A DNA stretch of 47,683 nucleotides. It comes from Rhodospirillales bacterium (GTDB lineage Bacteria > Pseudomonadota > Alphaproteobacteria > Rhodospirillales > Defluviicoccaceae). The notes under the pieces are model-generated. The model searched no databases. It was not told the origin of the DNA and was given only the letters and a program-made list of their open reading frames with translations. The translations under genes were made by a program, and so were the position numbers. The first letter of the stretch is position 1. Each line of letters opens with the position of its first letter. The stretch spans positions 1 to 47,683 of the forward strand of contig JAEULH010000076.1 in NCBI GenBank assembly GCA_016793925.1. Direction: 5' to 3'. This document shows, piece by piece, positions 3,454 through 44,878 of the stretch.

Positions 3454-4437
3454 TCAGCGGCCGAGATCGACGACCACCCGCCCGCGAACCTTGCCCGCGA
3501 GGACGTCCTTCGCCACCCGCGGGACCTCATCCAGGCCGACGGTCGCCGTCATGGTCTCGAGCTTGTCGACGTCAAGATCGTCGGCGAGACGGGCCCACGC
3601 CTCCAACCGCTTCGCCTTCGGCGCCAACACCGAGTCGATCCCGACCAGGGTGACGCCGCGGAGGATGAACGGCGCAACCGAGGCCGGCAGGTCCATGCCC
3701 TGCGCCAGACCGCAAGAGGCGACTGCGCCGAGATGGCGGGTCGCGGCCAGCACGTTGGCCAGCGTATGGCTGCCGACAGCGTCGACGCCGCCGGCCCAGC
3801 GCGTTTTGCCGAGCGGCCTGCCGGGTTCGGACAGCTCCTTGCGGTCGATGATCTCGGCCGCGCCCAGTCCTTTCAGATAGTCCGCCTCGGCGGCGCGGCC
3901 GGTCGAGGCCAGCACCCTGTAGCCGAGCTTGGCCAGAATGGCCACCGCGACGCTGCCGACGCCGCCGCTGGCGCCGGTGACGATCACGTCCCCGGCATCC
4001 GGCGTCACGCCATGGGCCTCGAGCGCAAGCACGGCAAGCATCGCGGTGTACCCGGCGGTGCCGATGGCCATGGCCTGCGCCGGCGTGAACGCCTGCGGCA
4101 GCGGCACCAGCCAGTCGCCGCGAACCCGCGCCTTGCCGGCATAGCCGCCCCAGTGCGATTCGCCGACACCCCAACCGTTGAGGACGACCGCGTCTCCCGG
4201 CTTGTAGTCCGGGTGACTGCTGGTCTCGACGGTCCCCGCGAAGTCGATGCCGGGCACCATCGGGTATTTGCGCACAATCGAGCCCTTGCCGGTCACGGCG
4301 AGGCCGTCCTTGTAGTTCACCGTCGAATGATCGACGACGACGGTAACGTCGCCCTCGGGCAGGTCGGCATCGTCAAGATCGCGAAGTGTCGCGGCGACGC
4401 CGCCGTCCGTCTTGTCGACAAGCAATGCCTTGAACAT
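3454..4437 (-). CDS. acuI: AcuI/YhdH-type acrylyl-CoA reductase (NADPH), MDR superfamily
   Basis: This is a zinc-independent medium-chain dehydrogenase/reductase of 327 residues, the usual length of AcuI. The family reduces acrylyl-CoA to propionyl-CoA, for example in DMSP and 3-hydroxypropionate metabolism, and detoxifies acrylate. Visible are the N-terminal [25 protein letters not shown], and the nucleotide-binding motif [16 protein letters not shown] near residue 152. The end, [11 protein letters not shown], is typical of the family. The start has a strong ribosome binding site, AGGGAGGAGGT. This site is complementary over 11 bases to the loop of the two anti-SD sRNAs in this window (5610-5724 and 33820-33934). 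It lies 56 bp downstream of the thioesterase gene, so the two probably form an operon. Confidence 0.85.
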
Positions 4438-38441: not shown

Positions 38442-38518
38442 GCGCCCGTAGCTCAGCCGGACAGAGCAACTGCCTTCTAAGCAGTGGGTCGCAGGTTCAA
38501 GTCCTGCCGGGCGCACCA
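38442..38518 (+). tRNA. tRNA-Arg (anticodon TCT)
   Basis: This is a 77-base cloverleaf with encoded CCA. The acceptor stem is GCGCCCG/CGGGCGC, the D arm contains GCTCAGCCGGACAGAGC, the anticodon stem-loop is ACTGC-CTTCTAA-GCAGT with anticodon TCT, and the T arm has GGTTCAAGTCC. It decodes AGA. The accessory region with the DGR-type target genes begins after it. Confidence 0.97.
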
Positions 38519-38949: not shown

Positions 38950-41900
38950 ATGGTGGCGGACCCGCCGAAGGTCTTCATCAGCTACAGCCATGATGACGAG
39001 CGGCACGAAGAGCGTGTGCTCGAACTCGCCAATCGCCTGCGCCTGGACGGGATCGATGCGGAGATCGATCAGTACATCCACTCGCCGCCCGAGGGATGGC
39101 CGCTCTGGTGCGAGCAGAAGATCGAAGAGGCCGGCTTTGTGCTGCTGGTCTGTACGCAGACCTATCACCGCCGGGTCGCCAACAAGGAAGAAGCCGGTGT
39201 AGGCCACGGTGTGGTGTGGGAGGCGCGGATCATCCGCCAGCTTCTCTACGATGCCGGTTCGGTGAGCGAGAAGTTTATTCCTGTCCTCTTTTCCGATGGC
39301 AACGCCGAGCACATTCCAAGGCCGGTAAAGGGCGCGACCCGGTACAAGGTGGATACCGCATCCGACTACGAGCGCCTCTGCCGCCACCTCACCAGCCAAC
39401 CGATGGTCGTCAAGCCCGCACTTGGCGCACCCAGAGCGCTCCCGCCCAGGACGCCCAAAACCCGGGCCGCTGCCGGGGCGCGACCGGAAATGCACGCGGC
39501 AGCGTCTCCAACAGCTTCACCGCCGGTGAAGGCCAACGCTGGGCATGGGCCACACCACCCCGCGATACCGCCGGCCGTTCCGGCCGTGAAACCCCGTTCA
39601 GGTGATAGATTGGCACCGGACGCCATCCGCTGGCTGCATCTCTCCGACCTGCACATGGGCTGCAGAGGAGCGGAGATCTGGTGGCAGGTGCGAAGCGAAT
39701 TCAAAGACAGCATCAAGCAGTGCTTTCGGCCGATCGACATGATCCTGTTGACGGGCGACTTGACGTTTTCGGCACAACCGGCCCAGTTCGAACTCGTCGA
39801 CAGATTTCTCGAGGATCTCCTCGGCTGGTTGCGCGAGGCCGGCCAGGAGAGCGACCCCTTGGTGATTCCGGTTCCCGGAAACCACGACGTGCTGCACCTC
39901 GACGATCTTGATATCGCCTCCTTCTACAATCTCGACAATTTCTGGAAGGATCCGGAACACCCGTTTATCGAGTCCCTGCGCAAGCGCCTTTGGGAAGGAC
40001 GAAACGCAGCCTATTTTGGGCCGCTCTTCGGCAACTATGTCGGCTGGCTGGAAAGAAGCATCCTCCCGCCCTTGGCCGGTCGCCAGGGCGTTGTCGTACA
40101 CCGGTCACACTTCCCCGGCGATATCGGCGTCCGTGTGCGTCTCGGCGATCGGCCGCCGGCGACGATCGTCGGACTAAATTCCGCGTGGGTTCAGTACAAT
40201 AAAGGGGATTTTGACCGTCGGATCGAGCTCTTCACGCAGCAGCTTCATTGTGCGCTGGGGAACGACGCGGCAGTCTCGCCCTTCGATGGGCTGGCCGGCT
40301 GTCTCAATCTGCTTCTGATGCATCATCCCCCGGCGTGGTTGTCGGCGAAGGCCAGCCAGCGCTTCAGGGAGGAAGTCTATCCGCCCGACCGCTTCCTTCT
40401 GTGCCTGCACGGGCACATGCACGAAGGCCGCTCCGAGGCGATATCCTGCTCGGGTGGCAAACTCCGCTATTTCTTTCAGGCGCCCTCTCTTTTCGGAGTG
40501 GAGCACTACGGCCAATCGAACGAGACGCGGTCGATGGGCTACGCCTGGGGAGAAATGGACGCGACCGGCACCGTCCGGGTTTTCCCGCTCAAGCGGGGGT
40601 CCCAGGGCGGTCGGCAGGTGTTCTTGTGGGATAGCGAATTCGAGCCGGACCCGGCCGGCCGTCAAATCCGCCCCCTCATTGTTGATCCCAGCACCGTCAT
40701 TGCTGCGCCGGACCTCACCCCATGGCTGGAAGCACTCCTGGAGCGCATCGGCTACGTCGAAATCAGCGGCATCGGCAGTGGCGTCGGGCGGACACGTGAT
40801 GCGACGCGCTATCCGATCGAACAGCTCTACACAACGCTGCGCAGCCAGGATGCGACCGAGGGACTGACCGGTCGTGCCGAACCAGTTGCGCTGGCCGAAC
40901 TCGCCTCGCGTCATCCGCTGCTGCTTATCGAAGGTCAGCCAGGCGCCGGCAAAACCACGTTCCTGCGCTTGGCAGCGACGATGCTCGCCAAGGACTTCCT
41001 CCGCATGCCCTGCCCCAGCGCGCCGTCCTGGCGCGAAAAATACCTGGGGATGTCCGGTCGAGAGAAGGCGCCGGCACCAATCTTTCTGCGGCTCTCCAAG
41101 CTCGCGACCCTTCTGACCGAGCTCGGCGACACGTCGCTGCCGGATGATCACCAGCGCCTTCTCGACCTCCTGGCTCGTAGCAGCGGTAAGACCAGCGACG
41201 CTTGGCGCAGGCACTGGGAAAGGCTTCTTGAGCGCGGGGAAGCCGTTCTGCTCCTCGATGGCATGGATGAGGTTGCGGACGACTGCATGCGAGAACGCAT
41301 TTTCGCGATTTTCCGCGACGCCCGCCTGCACTGGGACAAGGCCAGGGTTGTGGTGACGAGCCGCCCGTTCGGTGTCGAGGCCATTCGCGAGATGGGCTTT
41401 CACCACGCAAAGATTGAGGACTTCGGTAAGAAGGAGATCAGAGAATTCGTCGAGCGCTGGGTGGCGGCGCTTCACAACCTTCCGATCGGCGAACGGCCGG
41501 AGGGAGCGGCGGGCGAGAAGGCCGACGGGATCATCCAGGATGTCCTGCGCCGCCGCGGGTTGCGACGGATGGCCGCCAATCCGGTTATGCTGACCTGTCT
41601 GTGCGTCGTTCACTGGAACGAGGGCGACCTGCCGGAGGGCCGGGCAAGGCTCTACCGGGCGGTGTTGCGCTGGCTGATCGCCGCGCGCTCGCCTCAGCGG
41701 AATGACTTGACGTTCACCGACCGGTTTGCCCTCGAGGCCTTCGCGGCGGTGGCCTTCGCCATGATGGTTGGAGCGGTCGGGGAAAAGTCCGCGGACCTCG
41801 ATTTCGGGGAAAGCGCCGAGGCGATTGTCTCCGTGGCGGAGCGTCACTTTCCGATCGACATTGGTATCCGCCGAGCGCGGGAGTGGCTTCGCTTTGAATG

Positions 41901-43056
41901 TTTGTGGAGTGGCATCATCGAGGAGGAGTCGGCTGGAAGGGTCCGCTTCTGGCACCTGACCTTCCAGGAGTACCTGGCCGCCCAGGAACTCGCCTGGCGC
42001 CGGGACAGGGATGGCGCCGAGGATTGGTGGCCAGCGGTCAAGGGGCGACTGGACGATCCCCAGTGGCGGGAAACAGTGGATCTCCTGCCGGGCGTTCTGT
42101 TCGATGAAGGCGGCCGTGGGCGGGTCGACCTGCTGCTACGAAGAGTGATCGCCCTCCGGGAGGGACCTGCTTCGTTGGCTACGGATGCCCGCGTTTTTGG
42201 CATCCTGGGTCGCATCCTCAGATCGATGACCGCCTATCAGTACAAGCCGACGCGGGAGATCGAGGCGGTATACAACGATCTTGAAGAGCGCATCCTGGCC
42301 ATCTTCTCCCTCGACGGCGCCGTCAAGGTTCCGGTCAAAACGCGCATCGAAGCGGCGGAAGCGCTCGGGCGGTCGGGAGACCCCAGGCTCGATCGAGACT
42401 GCTTCATCGAGGTTCCCGACACGAGCGGGGTGAGCCTCGGCAAGTATCCGGTCACGGTTCAGGACTACCAGGCGTTCGTCGACGCCGATGGTTACAAGAC
42501 CGATCAGTACTGGGACGACGAGGGCTGGCGGTCAAGAAGCGAGGGTCGCTGGGTCGAACCTGATGGGTGGGACGCGCAGCTTGAGCACCCCAACCGCCCG
42601 GTGACGGGCGTATCGTGGTATGAAGCGTCGGCCTTTTGCCGGTGGCGGAGCAGTGACAGCGACTGGACGTTTCGCTTGCCGAACGAGGCAGAATGGTTGG
42701 CTGCGTCTGCCCCGGACGGGCGGACGTATCCGTGGGGAGCCGAGGAGCCGGATCCCAAGCGAGCCAACTTCAATCGCAACGTCGGTGCGCCAACGCCTGT
42801 CGGCGTCTATCCCGCGAGCGATGGCCCCTACGGCCACTGCGATCTCGCTGGGAACGTATGGGAGTGGATGAACGATGATTTGGAAGAAACCAAGTCTGAA
42901 GACCATGAAGGAATACAATCCTCTCGCAACCGCGTCCTCCGCGGCGGCTCCTGGTACGTCAATCCGGGGATCCTCCGTTCGGCGTTCCGCTACAGGTACG
43001 TGCCCGTTAATCGGGTCAGCGTTCTCGGGTTCCGGGTTGCTCGGACGCTTGATTAG
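38950..43056 (+). CDS. SEFIR - metallophosphoesterase - NACHT - FGE protein, DGR-type variable protein 1
   Basis: This 1368-residue multidomain protein is probably an immune-type sensor/effector. A SEFIR (TIR-like) domain at about residues 6-155 reads KVFISYSHDDERHEERV. A Pro/Ala-rich linker follows. A calcineurin-like phosphoesterase has HLSDLHMG (230), GDLTFS (269), GNHD (310), HHPP (458) and HGHMHEG (487), so all metal ligands appear present. A NACHT NTPase has Walker A GQPGAGKT (662) and Walker B LLLDGMDEV (767), followed by a helical region. A C-terminal formylglycine-generating-enzyme/C-type-lectin-like domain (about 1155-1366) has GKYPVTVQDYQAFV, FRLPNEAEWLAAS, GNVWEWMND and RVLRGGSW. 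Residues 1330-1358 lie in a variable repeat shared with the next gene. The start follows GGGGGGG. Confidence 0.85.
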   Translation: MVADPPKVFISYSHDDERHEERVLELANRLRLDGIDAEIDQYIHSPPEGWPLWCEQKIEEAGFVLLVCTQTYHRRVANKEEAGVGHGVVWEARIIRQLLYDAGSVSEKFIPVLFSDGNAEHIPRPVKGATRYKVDTASDYERLCRHLTSQPMVVKPALGAPRALPPRTPKTRAAAGARPEMHAAASPTASPPVKANAGHGPHHPAIPPAVPAVKPRSGDRLAPDAIRWLHLSDLHMGCRGAEIWWQVRSEFKDSIKQCFRPIDMILLTGDLTFSAQPAQFELVDRFLEDLLGWLREAGQESDPLVIPVPGNHDVLHLDDLDIASFYNLDNFWKDPEHPFIESLRKRLWEGRNAAYFGPLFGNYVGWLERSILPPLAGRQGVVVHRSHFPGDIGVRVRLGDRPPATIVGLNSAWVQYNKGDFDRRIELFTQQLHCALGNDAAVSPFDGLAGCLNLLLMHHPPAWLSAKASQRFREEVYPPDRFLLCLHGHMHEGRSEAISCSGGKLRYFFQAPSLFGVEHYGQSNETRSMGYAWGEMDATGTVRVFPLKRGSQGGRQVFLWDSEFEPDPAGRQIRPLIVDPSTVIAAPDLTPWLEALLERIGYVEISGIGSGVGRTRDATRYPIEQLYTTLRSQDATEGLTGRAEPVALAELASRHPLLLIEGQPGAGKTTFLRLAATMLAKDFLRMPCPSAPSWREKYLGMSGREKAPAPIFLRLSKLATLLTELGDTSLPDDHQRLLDLLARSSGKTSDAWRRHWERLLERGEAVLLLDGMDEVADDCMRERIFAIFRDARLHWDKARVVVTSRPFGVEAIREMGFHHAKIEDFGKKEIREFVERWVAALHNLPIGERPEGAAGEKADGIIQDVLRRRGLRRMAANPVMLTCLCVVHWNEGDLPEGRARLYRAVLRWLIAARSPQRNDLTFTDRFALEAFAAVAFAMMVGAVGEKSADLDFGESAEAIVSVAERHFPIDIGIRRAREWLRFECLWSGIIEEESAGRVRFWHLTFQEYLAAQELAWRRDRDGAEDWWPAVKGRLDDPQWRETVDLLPGVLFDEGGRGRVDLLLRRVIALREGPASLATDARVFGILGRILRSMTAYQYKPTREIEAVYNDLEERILAIFSLDGAVKVPVKTRIEAAEALGRSGDPRLDRDCFIEVPDTSGVSLGKYPVTVQDYQAFVDADGYKTDQYWDDEGWRSRSEGRWVEPDGWDAQLEHPNRPVTGVSWYEASAFCRWRSSDSDWTFRLPNEAEWLAASAPDGRTYPWGAEEPDPKRANFNRNVGAPTPVGVYPASDGPYGHCDLAGNVWEWMNDDLEETKSEDHEGIQSSRNRVLRGGSWYVNPGILRSAFRYRYVPVNRVSVLGFRVARTLD

Positions 43057-43117
43057 GACTTGAATCTTTACTCCTTTAGCTCTTGGGTCCAGGGCGAAGC
43101 CCTGGTCGATTTTTTTT
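42907..43117 (+). repeat. DGR-type variable repeat 1 with 3' flank
   Basis: This segment is homologous to 44668-44878. The first 30 bases are identical. The core 42937-43023 differs at 20 of 87 positions in 13 codons, all changing the amino acid. The next 94 bases differ at 3 positions although 61 of them are non-coding. In 12 of the 13 variable codons only positions 1 and/or 2 differ. Fourteen of the 20 mismatches have A in one copy, and all are compatible with a template carrying A. Confidence 0.85.
43089..43117 (+). other. GAA-loop hairpin after variable repeat 1
   Basis: CCAGGGC-GAA-GCCCTGG forms a 7-bp stem with a 3-base loop, 32 bases after the stop codon, then TCGA and eight T. Position and size fit the stem-loop that follows the variable repeat in DGRs and stimulates retrohoming. 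The T-run means it may equally act as a terminator. Confidence 0.6.
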
Positions 43118-43134
43118 CTAACCTCAGCCCTCGG

Positions 43135-43236
43135 ATGACCGACAACAGCAAGCACACCGGCGTGGCTCTCGAGAAAGCCTACCAGTTCATCGTATGGCTG
43201 GTGCCGACGGTCGAGAAGTTTCCGCGCACGCCCCAG
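43135..43236 (+). pseudogene. avd: Truncated Avd-like gene (DGR accessory protein), remnant
   Basis: The frame MTDNSKHTGVALEKAYQFI continues to VWLVPTVEKFPRT and then loses similarity at about residue 33. Helix 1 of Avd proteins has this pattern, with a Trp-Leu-X-Pro segment and the EKFPR motif before the loop to helix 2. The remaining frame is Arg/Gly-rich and stops at 43332. The ribosome binding site is poor. DGRs usually have avd between the variable repeat and the template repeat/RT gene, exactly where this lies. The identification rests on one helix, so it is probable and not certain. Confidence 0.55.
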
Positions 43237-43437
43237 ACCGGCCGGAGCCGGGGCGTCCATGGACGCTCCGGGCGCGCACGAGGGCGTCCAGGACCGGCCA
43301 TGATGAGCGCGTACGCCCGGCGTCCGTCCTGACCCCTTGTGGGTGACGGGCGCCGGGCAGATGCGAAAAGCTTCATCCCTCCAAAGCCTTGCGATAGTAC
43401 TACGGCGACAGGGTACGGGGGCGGAGATTGGCTGGCT
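43237..43437. other. Degenerate stretch between the avd remnant and the second target gene
   Basis: No gene is visible. There is a GCGTCCATGGACGC palindrome (43253-43266). A template repeat (a third copy of the variable repeat with AAC-rich codons) is not present here. Confidence 0.45.
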
Positions 43438-44817
43438 ATGGCTGCACGACTGAGTGAAACGAGGCCGGTCAGCCTGTTCTACTCGTACTCGCATCAGGAT
43501 GAAGCGCTGCGGAAACGGCTTGAGGACCACCTCGCCGGTCTACGCTGGAGCGGCTTGGTGTCCGAATGGCATGATCGCAACATCGACGTTGGCGAAGAGT
43601 GGGCGAAGGAGATTGACCGCAACCTGGATTCCGCTGACATCATCCTTTTGTTGGTCAGCGCCAGCTTTATCGCTTCGAGGTATTGCTGGAGCGTCGAGAT
43701 GACGCGTGCTCTGGAGCGGCACGACAAACAGGAAGCGAAAGTCATCCCCGTGATCTTGCGTCCCTGTCGATGGGGAATTACGCCTTTCGCGAAGCTGCAA
43801 GCGGCACCAAAGGATGCAAAGCCGGTGACATCCTGGCTGGACCAAGATGCGGCTTTTGACGATGTCGCTGGCAAGATCGAACGCGTCGTCATGGATCTGC
43901 GGGAGCAGCGTGCTGCGGTGGCGGCTGCCAGCGAAAATGTAGGGCCTTCCGCGGCAGGGGAGCCAGTCGCGAAGGACAATGGACCGGCCGATCAGGTCAC
44001 CAGTCCCATCCACGACTTCATGGTGTTCCGCGATCCGAGGCCTGACAAAGGTGTCGGGCCCGAACTTGTCGTTATTCCCGCCGGGTCGTTCTTGATGGGC
44101 TCGCCGGAGAGCGAAAAGGATCGCTTCAAATGGGAAGACCCGCAGCATGCCGTGACGATTGCCCGGCGGTTTGGACTTGGCCGCTATCCGGTAACGGTCG
44201 GCGAATACCGGGCGTTCGTTGAGGCGACCGGTCACCGGCACGGGGGCGGGATCCATGACTGGACCGGGTCCGAGTGGAAGCAGGATGTGGCGAGGAGTTG
44301 GCGAGATCCCGGATTCTCGCAGACGGACCGTCATCCCGTGGTGGGTGCCAGCTGGCGGGACGCGGTGGCGTATTGCGCATGGCTGAGCGAGCAGACGAAC
44401 AAGCTCTACCGGTTGCCGTCGGAGGCGGAGTGGGAGTATGCGTGCCGGGCCGGGACGACGACACGCTATTCGGTCGGCGACGCGATCACGGCGAACGACG
44501 CAAACTTCGACAAGAACGTCGGCAAGACGACGGAGGTGGGGTCCTATCCGCCGCCGAACCCGTGGGGTCTGTACGATATGCACGGGAACGTCTGGGAGTG
44601 GGTCGAGGACGTCTGGCATGACGACTACACGGGAGCGCCTGCGGACGGCTCGGCCTGGACGGATGGGGAAGGAATACAATCCTCTCGCAACCGCGTCGGC
44701 CGCGGCGGCTCCTGGATCAACATTCCGAGGTACCTCCGTTCGGCGATCCGCTACTGGCTCGCTCCCGTTAATCGGTACGGCATTCTCGGGTTCCGGGTTG
44801 CCCGGACGCTTGATTAG
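43438..44817 (+). CDS. TIR - FGE protein, DGR-type variable protein 2
   Basis: This 459-residue protein has an N-terminal TIR domain (about 11-165): VSLFYSYSHQDEALRKRLEDH-type start, SADIILLLVSASFIASRYC, and YCWSVEM, where Glu 87 is in the place of the catalytic glutamate of NAD-cleaving TIR domains. The linker is Ala-rich. The C-terminal domain (about 199-457) is FGE/C-type-lectin-like: ELVVIPAGSFLMGSPESE, LGRYPVTVGEYRAFVE, YRLPSEAEWEYACRAGT, GNVWEWVEDVW and GRGGSWINIP. Residues 421-449 are the variable segment. The FGE catalytic cysteine pattern is not retained there, so a binding role fits better than an enzyme. The start at 43438 follows GGAG; it lies 382 bp after the SEFIR-NACHT gene. 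Confidence 0.85.
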   Translation: MAARLSETRPVSLFYSYSHQDEALRKRLEDHLAGLRWSGLVSEWHDRNIDVGEEWAKEIDRNLDSADIILLLVSASFIASRYCWSVEMTRALERHDKQEAKVIPVILRPCRWGITPFAKLQAAPKDAKPVTSWLDQDAAFDDVAGKIERVVMDLREQRAAVAAASENVGPSAAGEPVAKDNGPADQVTSPIHDFMVFRDPRPDKGVGPELVVIPAGSFLMGSPESEKDRFKWEDPQHAVTIARRFGLGRYPVTVGEYRAFVEATGHRHGGGIHDWTGSEWKQDVARSWRDPGFSQTDRHPVVGASWRDAVAYCAWLSEQTNKLYRLPSEAEWEYACRAGTTTRYSVGDAITANDANFDKNVGKTTEVGSYPPPNPWGLYDMHGNVWEWVEDVWHDDYTGAPADGSAWTDGEGIQSSRNRVGRGGSWINIPRYLRSAIRYWLAPVNRYGILGFRVARTLD

Positions 44818-44878
44818 GACTTGAATCTTTACTCCTTTACCTCTTGGGTCCAGGGCGAAGCCCTGGACGATTTTTTTT
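44668..44878 (+). repeat. DGR-type variable repeat 2 with 3' flank
   Basis: This is the second copy of the segment at 42907-43117. The variable core is 44698-44784. Codon pairs (copy 1/copy 2) include CTC/GGC, TAC/ATC, GTC/AAC, ATC/TAC, TTC/ATC, TAC/CTC and GTC/TAC, all of the NNC type expected from AAC codons in a template. The 3' flank including the hairpin is nearly identical to copy 1. Confidence 0.85.

Follow-up and report, generated by a model that had tools for sequence, protein, structure and literature searches.

Target genes that outlive the diversity-generating retroelement (DGR) that rewrote them have already been published, in Treponema denticola and in Thiohalocapsa. As far as the available excerpts of these papers and of the two cited next go, T. 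denticola has target genes whose variable repeats (VRs) differ from known template repeats (TRs) mostly at adenines, in strains without an identified reverse transcriptase (RT) or TR, which the authors regard as leftovers of DGR loss (PMC4891356), and Thiohalocapsa PB-PSB1 has NACHT, TIR, and metallophosphoesterase targets with C-terminal C-type-lectin VRs, loci without RT or TR, and strain variants, some with the DGR core and some lacking it (PMC10907252). DGR-linked FGS (FGE-type) domains are known in conflict systems, the vWA-MoxR ternary systems (PMC7159879), and phage DGRs follow a hairpin rule of a 7- to 10-bp stem with a 4-nucleotide (nt) GRNA loop lying 4 to 34 bp from the VR (PMC3240598). 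Here we describe a DGR target locus on contig JAEULH010000076.1 (assembly GCA_016793925.1) of a Rhodospirillales bacterium of the family Defluviicoccaceae, whose 47,683 nt we refer to as the window; our literature search found no paper on DGRs in Defluviicoccus. Two genes of the window end in copies of the same repeat, and between them lies what appears to be the remnant of a DGR cassette. We consider it highly probable that both copies are DGR-rewritten VRs whose core was most likely removed by one deletion, leaving sensors that are probably frozen now. What the locus adds to the published cases is an unusually legible scar.

Results

A repeat search of the window returned a single 211-nt direct repeat, 42907-43117 versus 44668-44878, that is 89% identical and forms the 3' ends of two + strand genes (all features below are on this strand), as a first-pass annotation made from the window's letters had claimed. 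Base-by-base comparison of the two copies gave 23 differences in total, which divide the repeat into three zones: the 30-nt head is identical, the 87-nt core holds 20 of the differences, and the other 3 lie in the 94-nt tail. The core comprises 29 codons, and its 20 differences hit 13 of them, all 13 with a change of amino acid and only one with a change of the third base; at 14 of the 20 sites, one of the copies has A. The first-pass annotation had given the same counts for the core, its flanks, and its adenines, and they stand. Each module consists of the head, the VR, and a tail that continues beyond the stop codon, through a hairpin, into a T run. Alignment to a template from a relative (see below) delimits a 117-nt core within each module, at 42928..43044 for VR1 and at 44689..44805 for VR2. 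The DNA just 5' of the repeat is unrelated between the copies (31 of 101 bases match, ungapped), which bears out part of the claim that the two genes have unrelated N-terminal architectures; the claim does not extend to the proteins as a whole, both of which have an entire FGE-sulfatase domain plus an N-terminal SEFIR or TIR domain.

DNA similar to the repeat occurs in 10 of the 60 genomes of our relatives set, which includes the window's own genome (G000). Two relatives, both of the window's family, proved informative: G005, an uncultured Rhodospirillales (contig CAKZLS010000101), and G010, Defluviicoccus sp. SSA4 (CP058705). A tail similar to that of the window's modules lies 3' of the VRs in both. 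As a search marker, the tail gave no match in viral contigs and matched five stretches in genome contigs, three of them in the window's family. G005 carries a complete cassette in the order TIR-FGE gene with VR, hairpin, avd, RT, and AAC-rich TR, in which avd matches bAvd at 1.1e-16 and the RT matches RVT_1 at 1.7e-18. Its template has 30 A among 117 aligned bases, and its own VR differs from it at 19 positions, 18 of which are template A.

Set against this template, VR1 and VR2 differ at 21 positions of the 117-nt core, of which 17 fall on the 30 template-A columns (p 3.5e-9). The window's own genome holds a third copy of the segment, 79% identical, at 16176-16367 of contig C83; it was considered as the template that the first-pass annotation had predicted and was rejected, as it is a third VR (VR3) at a third TIR-FGE gene. 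When VR1, VR2, and VR3 are taken together, 28 of 36 variable columns lie on template A (p 1.4e-17). A second template, from relative G011, gave 16 of 21 and 25 of 36 differences at A columns (p 1.4e-7 and 1.0e-11). That both repeats are of DGR origin is close to certain, and the adenine-directed retrohoming proposed in the first-pass annotation now has a real template, in G005, behind it.

Ordinary divergence or gene conversion of paralogues, with no retroelement involved, has practically no chance of being the explanation. The module, head and tail included, must once have been copied from gene to gene, as this account would have it, because the tail need not be carried along in retrohoming. 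Yet the differences sit on template-A columns and are spread over the three codon positions as 11, 8, and 2, the tail differs at 3 of 94 sites only, and the stub of a DGR gene lies alongside. The first-pass annotation had likewise judged divergence and conversion inadequate, and the G005 template in substance refutes them.

That stub lies between the two genes. Positions 43135..43227 hold codons 1 to 31 of avd, the gene for the accessory protein Avd, recognized by identity to the Avd of G005 (81% over 31 residues with its start; 78% over 32 in another alignment). A protein search with the stub gave 10 matches resembling Avd starts, many on short contigs, under a search length limit that favors short proteins. 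From 43225, the window matches G005 from the last template bases on (79% over 136 columns, reaching 43356). Alignment to relatives identifies 43225..43308 as sequence that stands there immediately 3' of the template, and its part from 43241 to 43308 is 78 to 81% identical to the DNA directly behind the TR in G011, in G067, and on contig C168 of G054. The avd-side and TR-side alignments overlap by 7 bases at the join, 43225..43231. In G005, the two halves of the scar correspond to 2507-2602 and 4090-4221, so that by this measure about 1.49 kb is absent, with all of avd beyond the stub as well as the RT and the TR. A stub followed by template-flank sequence points to a former cassette at the locus, and from these alignments an in-place deletion, probably a single one, very likely took out the DGR core between the two genes. 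The stub and the loss of the cassette go beyond the first-pass annotation, which had seen the two VRs only.

A pure assembly artifact is unlikely, since the overlap between the two sides is only about 7 bases long. A mixed population, in which the cassette persists in part of the cells and the assembly represents the deleted form, has a parallel in Thiohalocapsa, where strains that have RT/TR coexist with strains that lack them at DGR 7 and DGR 3, as described in the excerpts of that paper (PMC10907252), but we consider it improbable here, as the long form was not seen in the assembled data.

The window's own genome is a draft of 3.31 Mb in 123 contigs, 95.76% complete. No RT was found in it by Pfam RVT_1, a search that was positive in 25 of the 60 genomes of the relatives set, and none with the RT of G005; the latter result led us to reject the idea that the Pfam model had overlooked one. 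The full RT frame of G005 does give three matches, which are VR DNA because that frame extends through its TR, and none is left once the TR part is removed. In the intact cassettes generally, the RT frame, and RT homology too, continues through the template in another frame, so that the template overlaps the RT 3' end (frames at L051 2849-4102 in G005, L062 1650-2897 in G011, and L109 1665-2867 in G067). With the G005 TR as query, no TR was found in the genome, only the three VRs, and the bAvd family found no Avd above its cut-off. Of the parts of a DGR, this 95.76% complete draft shows adenine-directed VRs; TR, DGR-type RT, and whole Avd were not found. The genes have what characterizes orphan targets, A-signature VRs without RT or TR, with a cassette remnant in addition. 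The first-pass annotation had expected a template next to an RT gene in this genome, an expectation that failed, the third copy being a VR and the assembly having yielded no RT or TR; the deletion scar between the two genes is a visible local cause of that failure.

A DGR of the same lineage that escaped assembly might still rewrite VR1, VR2, and VR3 in trans, in which case the scar would be real and the genes not frozen. Trans rewriting has been inferred in Thiohalocapsa according to the excerpts of that study (PMC10907252), the window's assembly is a draft, and VR1 and VR2 are near-identical outside A-type sites, all of which speak for a second DGR. Against it, neither RT nor TR was found in 3.31 Mb, and in the single-contig genome of G010 two repeats, VRa and VRb, mismatch both recognized templates at 17 to 29 non-A sites; a trans supply by these two templates was rejected on that ground, and VRs without a matching template therefore do occur in the family. 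We regard continued rewriting in trans as unlikely, though it deserves to be taken seriously, and our preferred reading remains that the core was lost and no second cassette is at work.

The state of avd was compared across the lineage in two sets of genomes. In the order set, 21 of 317 genomes matched in an Avd search, and 11 of these were counted as lineage (at least 48% identity; G083 is included although its longer, gapped BLAST match has 40%). In the class set, 14 of 385 genomes (a few of which belong to both sets) matched in a profile search, namely the window, 6 of the lineage, and 7 with weak matches. The other 10 Avd matches (26 to 34% identity) and the 7 weak ones were left out of the count of cut loci, and stubs of such distant lineages would be undetectable. 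Altogether, the lineage has 17 avd loci, of which 5 have avd and RT, 11 are cut, and 1 was counted as unresolved; intact cassettes that sit on short contigs may be under-represented in the bins, and the share of cut loci would then be overestimated.

In the order set, avd and RT are intact in G005, G011, and G067, and eight loci are cut. Besides the window, these are G060, where a stub runs to VPTVEK and then into unrelated DNA; G286, whose stub reaches WLVPTV and whose other contigs carry further, distant RTs; G260 and G083, whose avd has internal gaps and no adjacent RT; G019, with a lone avd fragment of 29 to 34 residues; contig C168 of G054, where avd is fused to RT residue 271 with the template retained (a separate RT lies on C84); and G230, where a whole avd is followed by about 500 bp of other sequence and then RT residues 4-55. 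Among the class-set loci, G501 and G677 have avd and RT, G349 has RT residues 6-91 only, G402 and G601 have stubs, and G327, the locus counted as unresolved, has avd with no RT found in the adjacent 1.5 kb. One same-genus pair gives a deletion before and after: relative to G067:C374 (L109), G054:C168 (L111) lacks roughly 1 kb from avd and the RT, with 95 to 96% identity on both sides of the gap and the join in a 14-bp stretch found in avd and in RT. The count of 5 lineage loci with avd and RT among 17 suggests that many DGR-made genes may escape a search that relies on the RT.

The left ends of the cuts lie at avd codons about 20-59 in 8 of the 11 cut loci. We do not claim a break hot spot in avd, since erosion of old stubs toward the target gene would produce a like picture and a stub of fewer than about 20 codons escapes detection. 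The recurrence of these end points, with some stubs directly behind a VR, might instead mean that the stub is a retained element and not a dead remnant, belonging for instance to the target site or to the 3' region of the target gene. We think this very unlikely. The window's stub runs into template flank, a sign that a cassette once stood there; elsewhere, stubs break off into unrelated sequence and one continues into RT; three (G601, G083, and G019) have no VR within the stretch read; and intact loci carry the whole avd. The stub is better read as the remnant of a lost cassette.

Two further loci were noted during this survey. G010 has a C-terminal piece of RT (80% over 59 residues; L113, C1 781605-781986) directly behind another VR: a further cut cassette, from a DGR lineage other than the one surveyed. 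G060 (L104-L108) has at least six VR-type FGE ends along with its avd stub and gave no RT match at 1e-5.

Behind VR1 lies a hairpin with a 7-bp GC-rich stem and a GAA loop (43089..43105), with a fold z of -2.03; 8 of 200 shuffles were equally stable, and an equal stem appeared in 3 of 200. The VR2 hairpin (44850..44866), whose stem reaches 9 bp if extended, was equaled in stem by 0 of 200 shuffles. The hairpins start 44 nt behind the VR core in VR1 and 42 nt in VR2, with its longer stem. A GC-rich hairpin is also present behind the VRs of G005 and G010, and the loop has 3 nt throughout: GAA in the window, GGA in G005, and TAA in G010 VRa.

Target gene 1 (38950..43056) encodes a 1368-residue protein of SEFIR, calcineurin-like phosphoesterase, NACHT, and FGE-sulfatase domains with VR1 at its end (Pfam: SEFIR 9.3e-14, Metallophos 3.2e-7, NACHT 7.7e-10, FGE-sulfatase 1.8e-45), and PADLOC matches it to bSEFIR at 3.7e-49. 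Target gene 2 (43438..44817) encodes a 459-residue TIR-FGE-sulfatase protein, counted from the ATG at 43438 in a frame open from 43339, with VR2 at its end (Pfam: TIR_2 1.7e-14, FGE-sulfatase 1.4e-63); PADLOC matches it to a ThsB-type TIR at 3.9e-59, and its matches in PDB include TvpA (2y3c, 4.4e-15), a DGR variable protein, the best being PvdO (5.2e-50). In both proteins the effector domain (SEFIR or TIR) is N-terminal, as in the bSEFIR and Thoeris-type TIR defense proteins that they match, and the VR sits, as judged from sequence, in the C-type-lectin/FGE-fold domain. The PADLOC matches support a defense role, and both genes are predicted to encode phage-defense sensors, in which the FGE ends would bind a ligand through the VR residues, their putative binding surface, and trigger the SEFIR-NACHT and TIR effectors. 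Target gene 2 is preceded by a leader (43306..43391) that is 84% identical over 86 nt to the leader before the VRa gene of G010 (L054 7003-7086); it precedes TIR-FGE genes in two of the family's genomes and may be a shared regulatory element.

Upstream of the locus, a tRNA-Arg (TCT) lies at 38442-38518, about 430 bp before target gene 1. As a test for an island, we looked elsewhere in the window for a copy of its 3' end and found none. The tRNA-Arg stands beside the same phospholipase-D-type gene in 2 of 7 relatives scanned, and the stretches fetched around it in those two gave no match to the target genes or to CutA. Beside VR3, two short frames (L003 860-1415, on C83) resemble a MazEF-type toxin-antitoxin pair by eye.

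Discussion

We infer that this locus formerly held a cassette of the G005 layout and that this cassette wrote both VRs. Its template RNA would have been copied into cDNA with errors at A, and the cDNA would have replaced the VR beside the hairpin-bearing tail. The whole module was probably copied earlier from one gene to the other, as the shared tail and 30-bp head indicate. Afterwards the core (RT, template, and the avd codons beyond the stub) would have been lost in a single deletion of about 1.49 kb as measured on G005, and with no second cassette working in trans, the sensor genes are likely frozen.

Several observations weigh against this account. Three of the 20 core differences lie at non-A positions of the G005 template. 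This template also disagrees with each of VR1, VR2, and VR3 at 13 of its 87 non-A columns, which is to be expected for sequences from different genera. The Pfam scan of the 31-codon stub gave no family, as expected at that length, and the window's genome has one sub-threshold bAvd match (contig C109, 18 bits). VR3 showed no clear hairpin, and the fold of the VR1 hairpin beats its shuffles only modestly. Finally, the genome is a draft and the intact cassettes of relatives lie on short contigs (11.0, 3.3, and 3.6 kb), so that an unbinned cassette could act in trans.

The locus shows what remains after the loss of a targeted mutator, an element usually judged by its abilities. As the scar marks where the mutator stopped, one can ask whether diversified immune sensors persist once they can no longer change, and whether at such loci the loss of the mutator is neutral decay or selected. 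On a speculative view, to which we give little weight, the loss would be a form of hit-and-run maturation in the DGRs of this lineage of Alphaproteobacteria: once it has written a defense sensor, the mutator core would be excised time and again, with the 5' portion of avd as a favored zone for the cut. This would fix the lineage's receptor repertoire, much as a lymphocyte ceases to edit its receptor, and the window would be a committed locus with two receptors.

We found no account of avd stubs in the literature searched, outside of which most subscription journals fell. The comparisons that follow rest on the same excerpts as above. Like Bordetella phage BPP-1, the window has VRs at the 3' ends of target genes with a GC-rich hairpin downstream; unlike the phage rule, the loop has 3 nt and not the 4-nt GRNA, and the distance of 42 to 44 nt lies outside 4 to 34 bp (PMC3240598). 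With the conflict systems it shares a C-terminal FGE-type domain diversified by DGRs and a predicted conflict role (PMC7159879). Thiohalocapsa resembles it in the domain types of the targets and in having incomplete loci; that study links the absent parts to transposons and to arrays resembling miniature inverted-repeat transposable elements (MITEs), whereas none were noticed between the window's two genes, and the term avd was not found in the text of that paper (PMC10907252). T. denticola, a member of a different phylum, likewise has A-signature targets without RT or TR. Its loss, however, was inferred from comparison of strains (PMC4891356), whereas in the window, whose targets by contrast have defense-type domains, the loss is marked in place by an avd stub and the flank of the former template.

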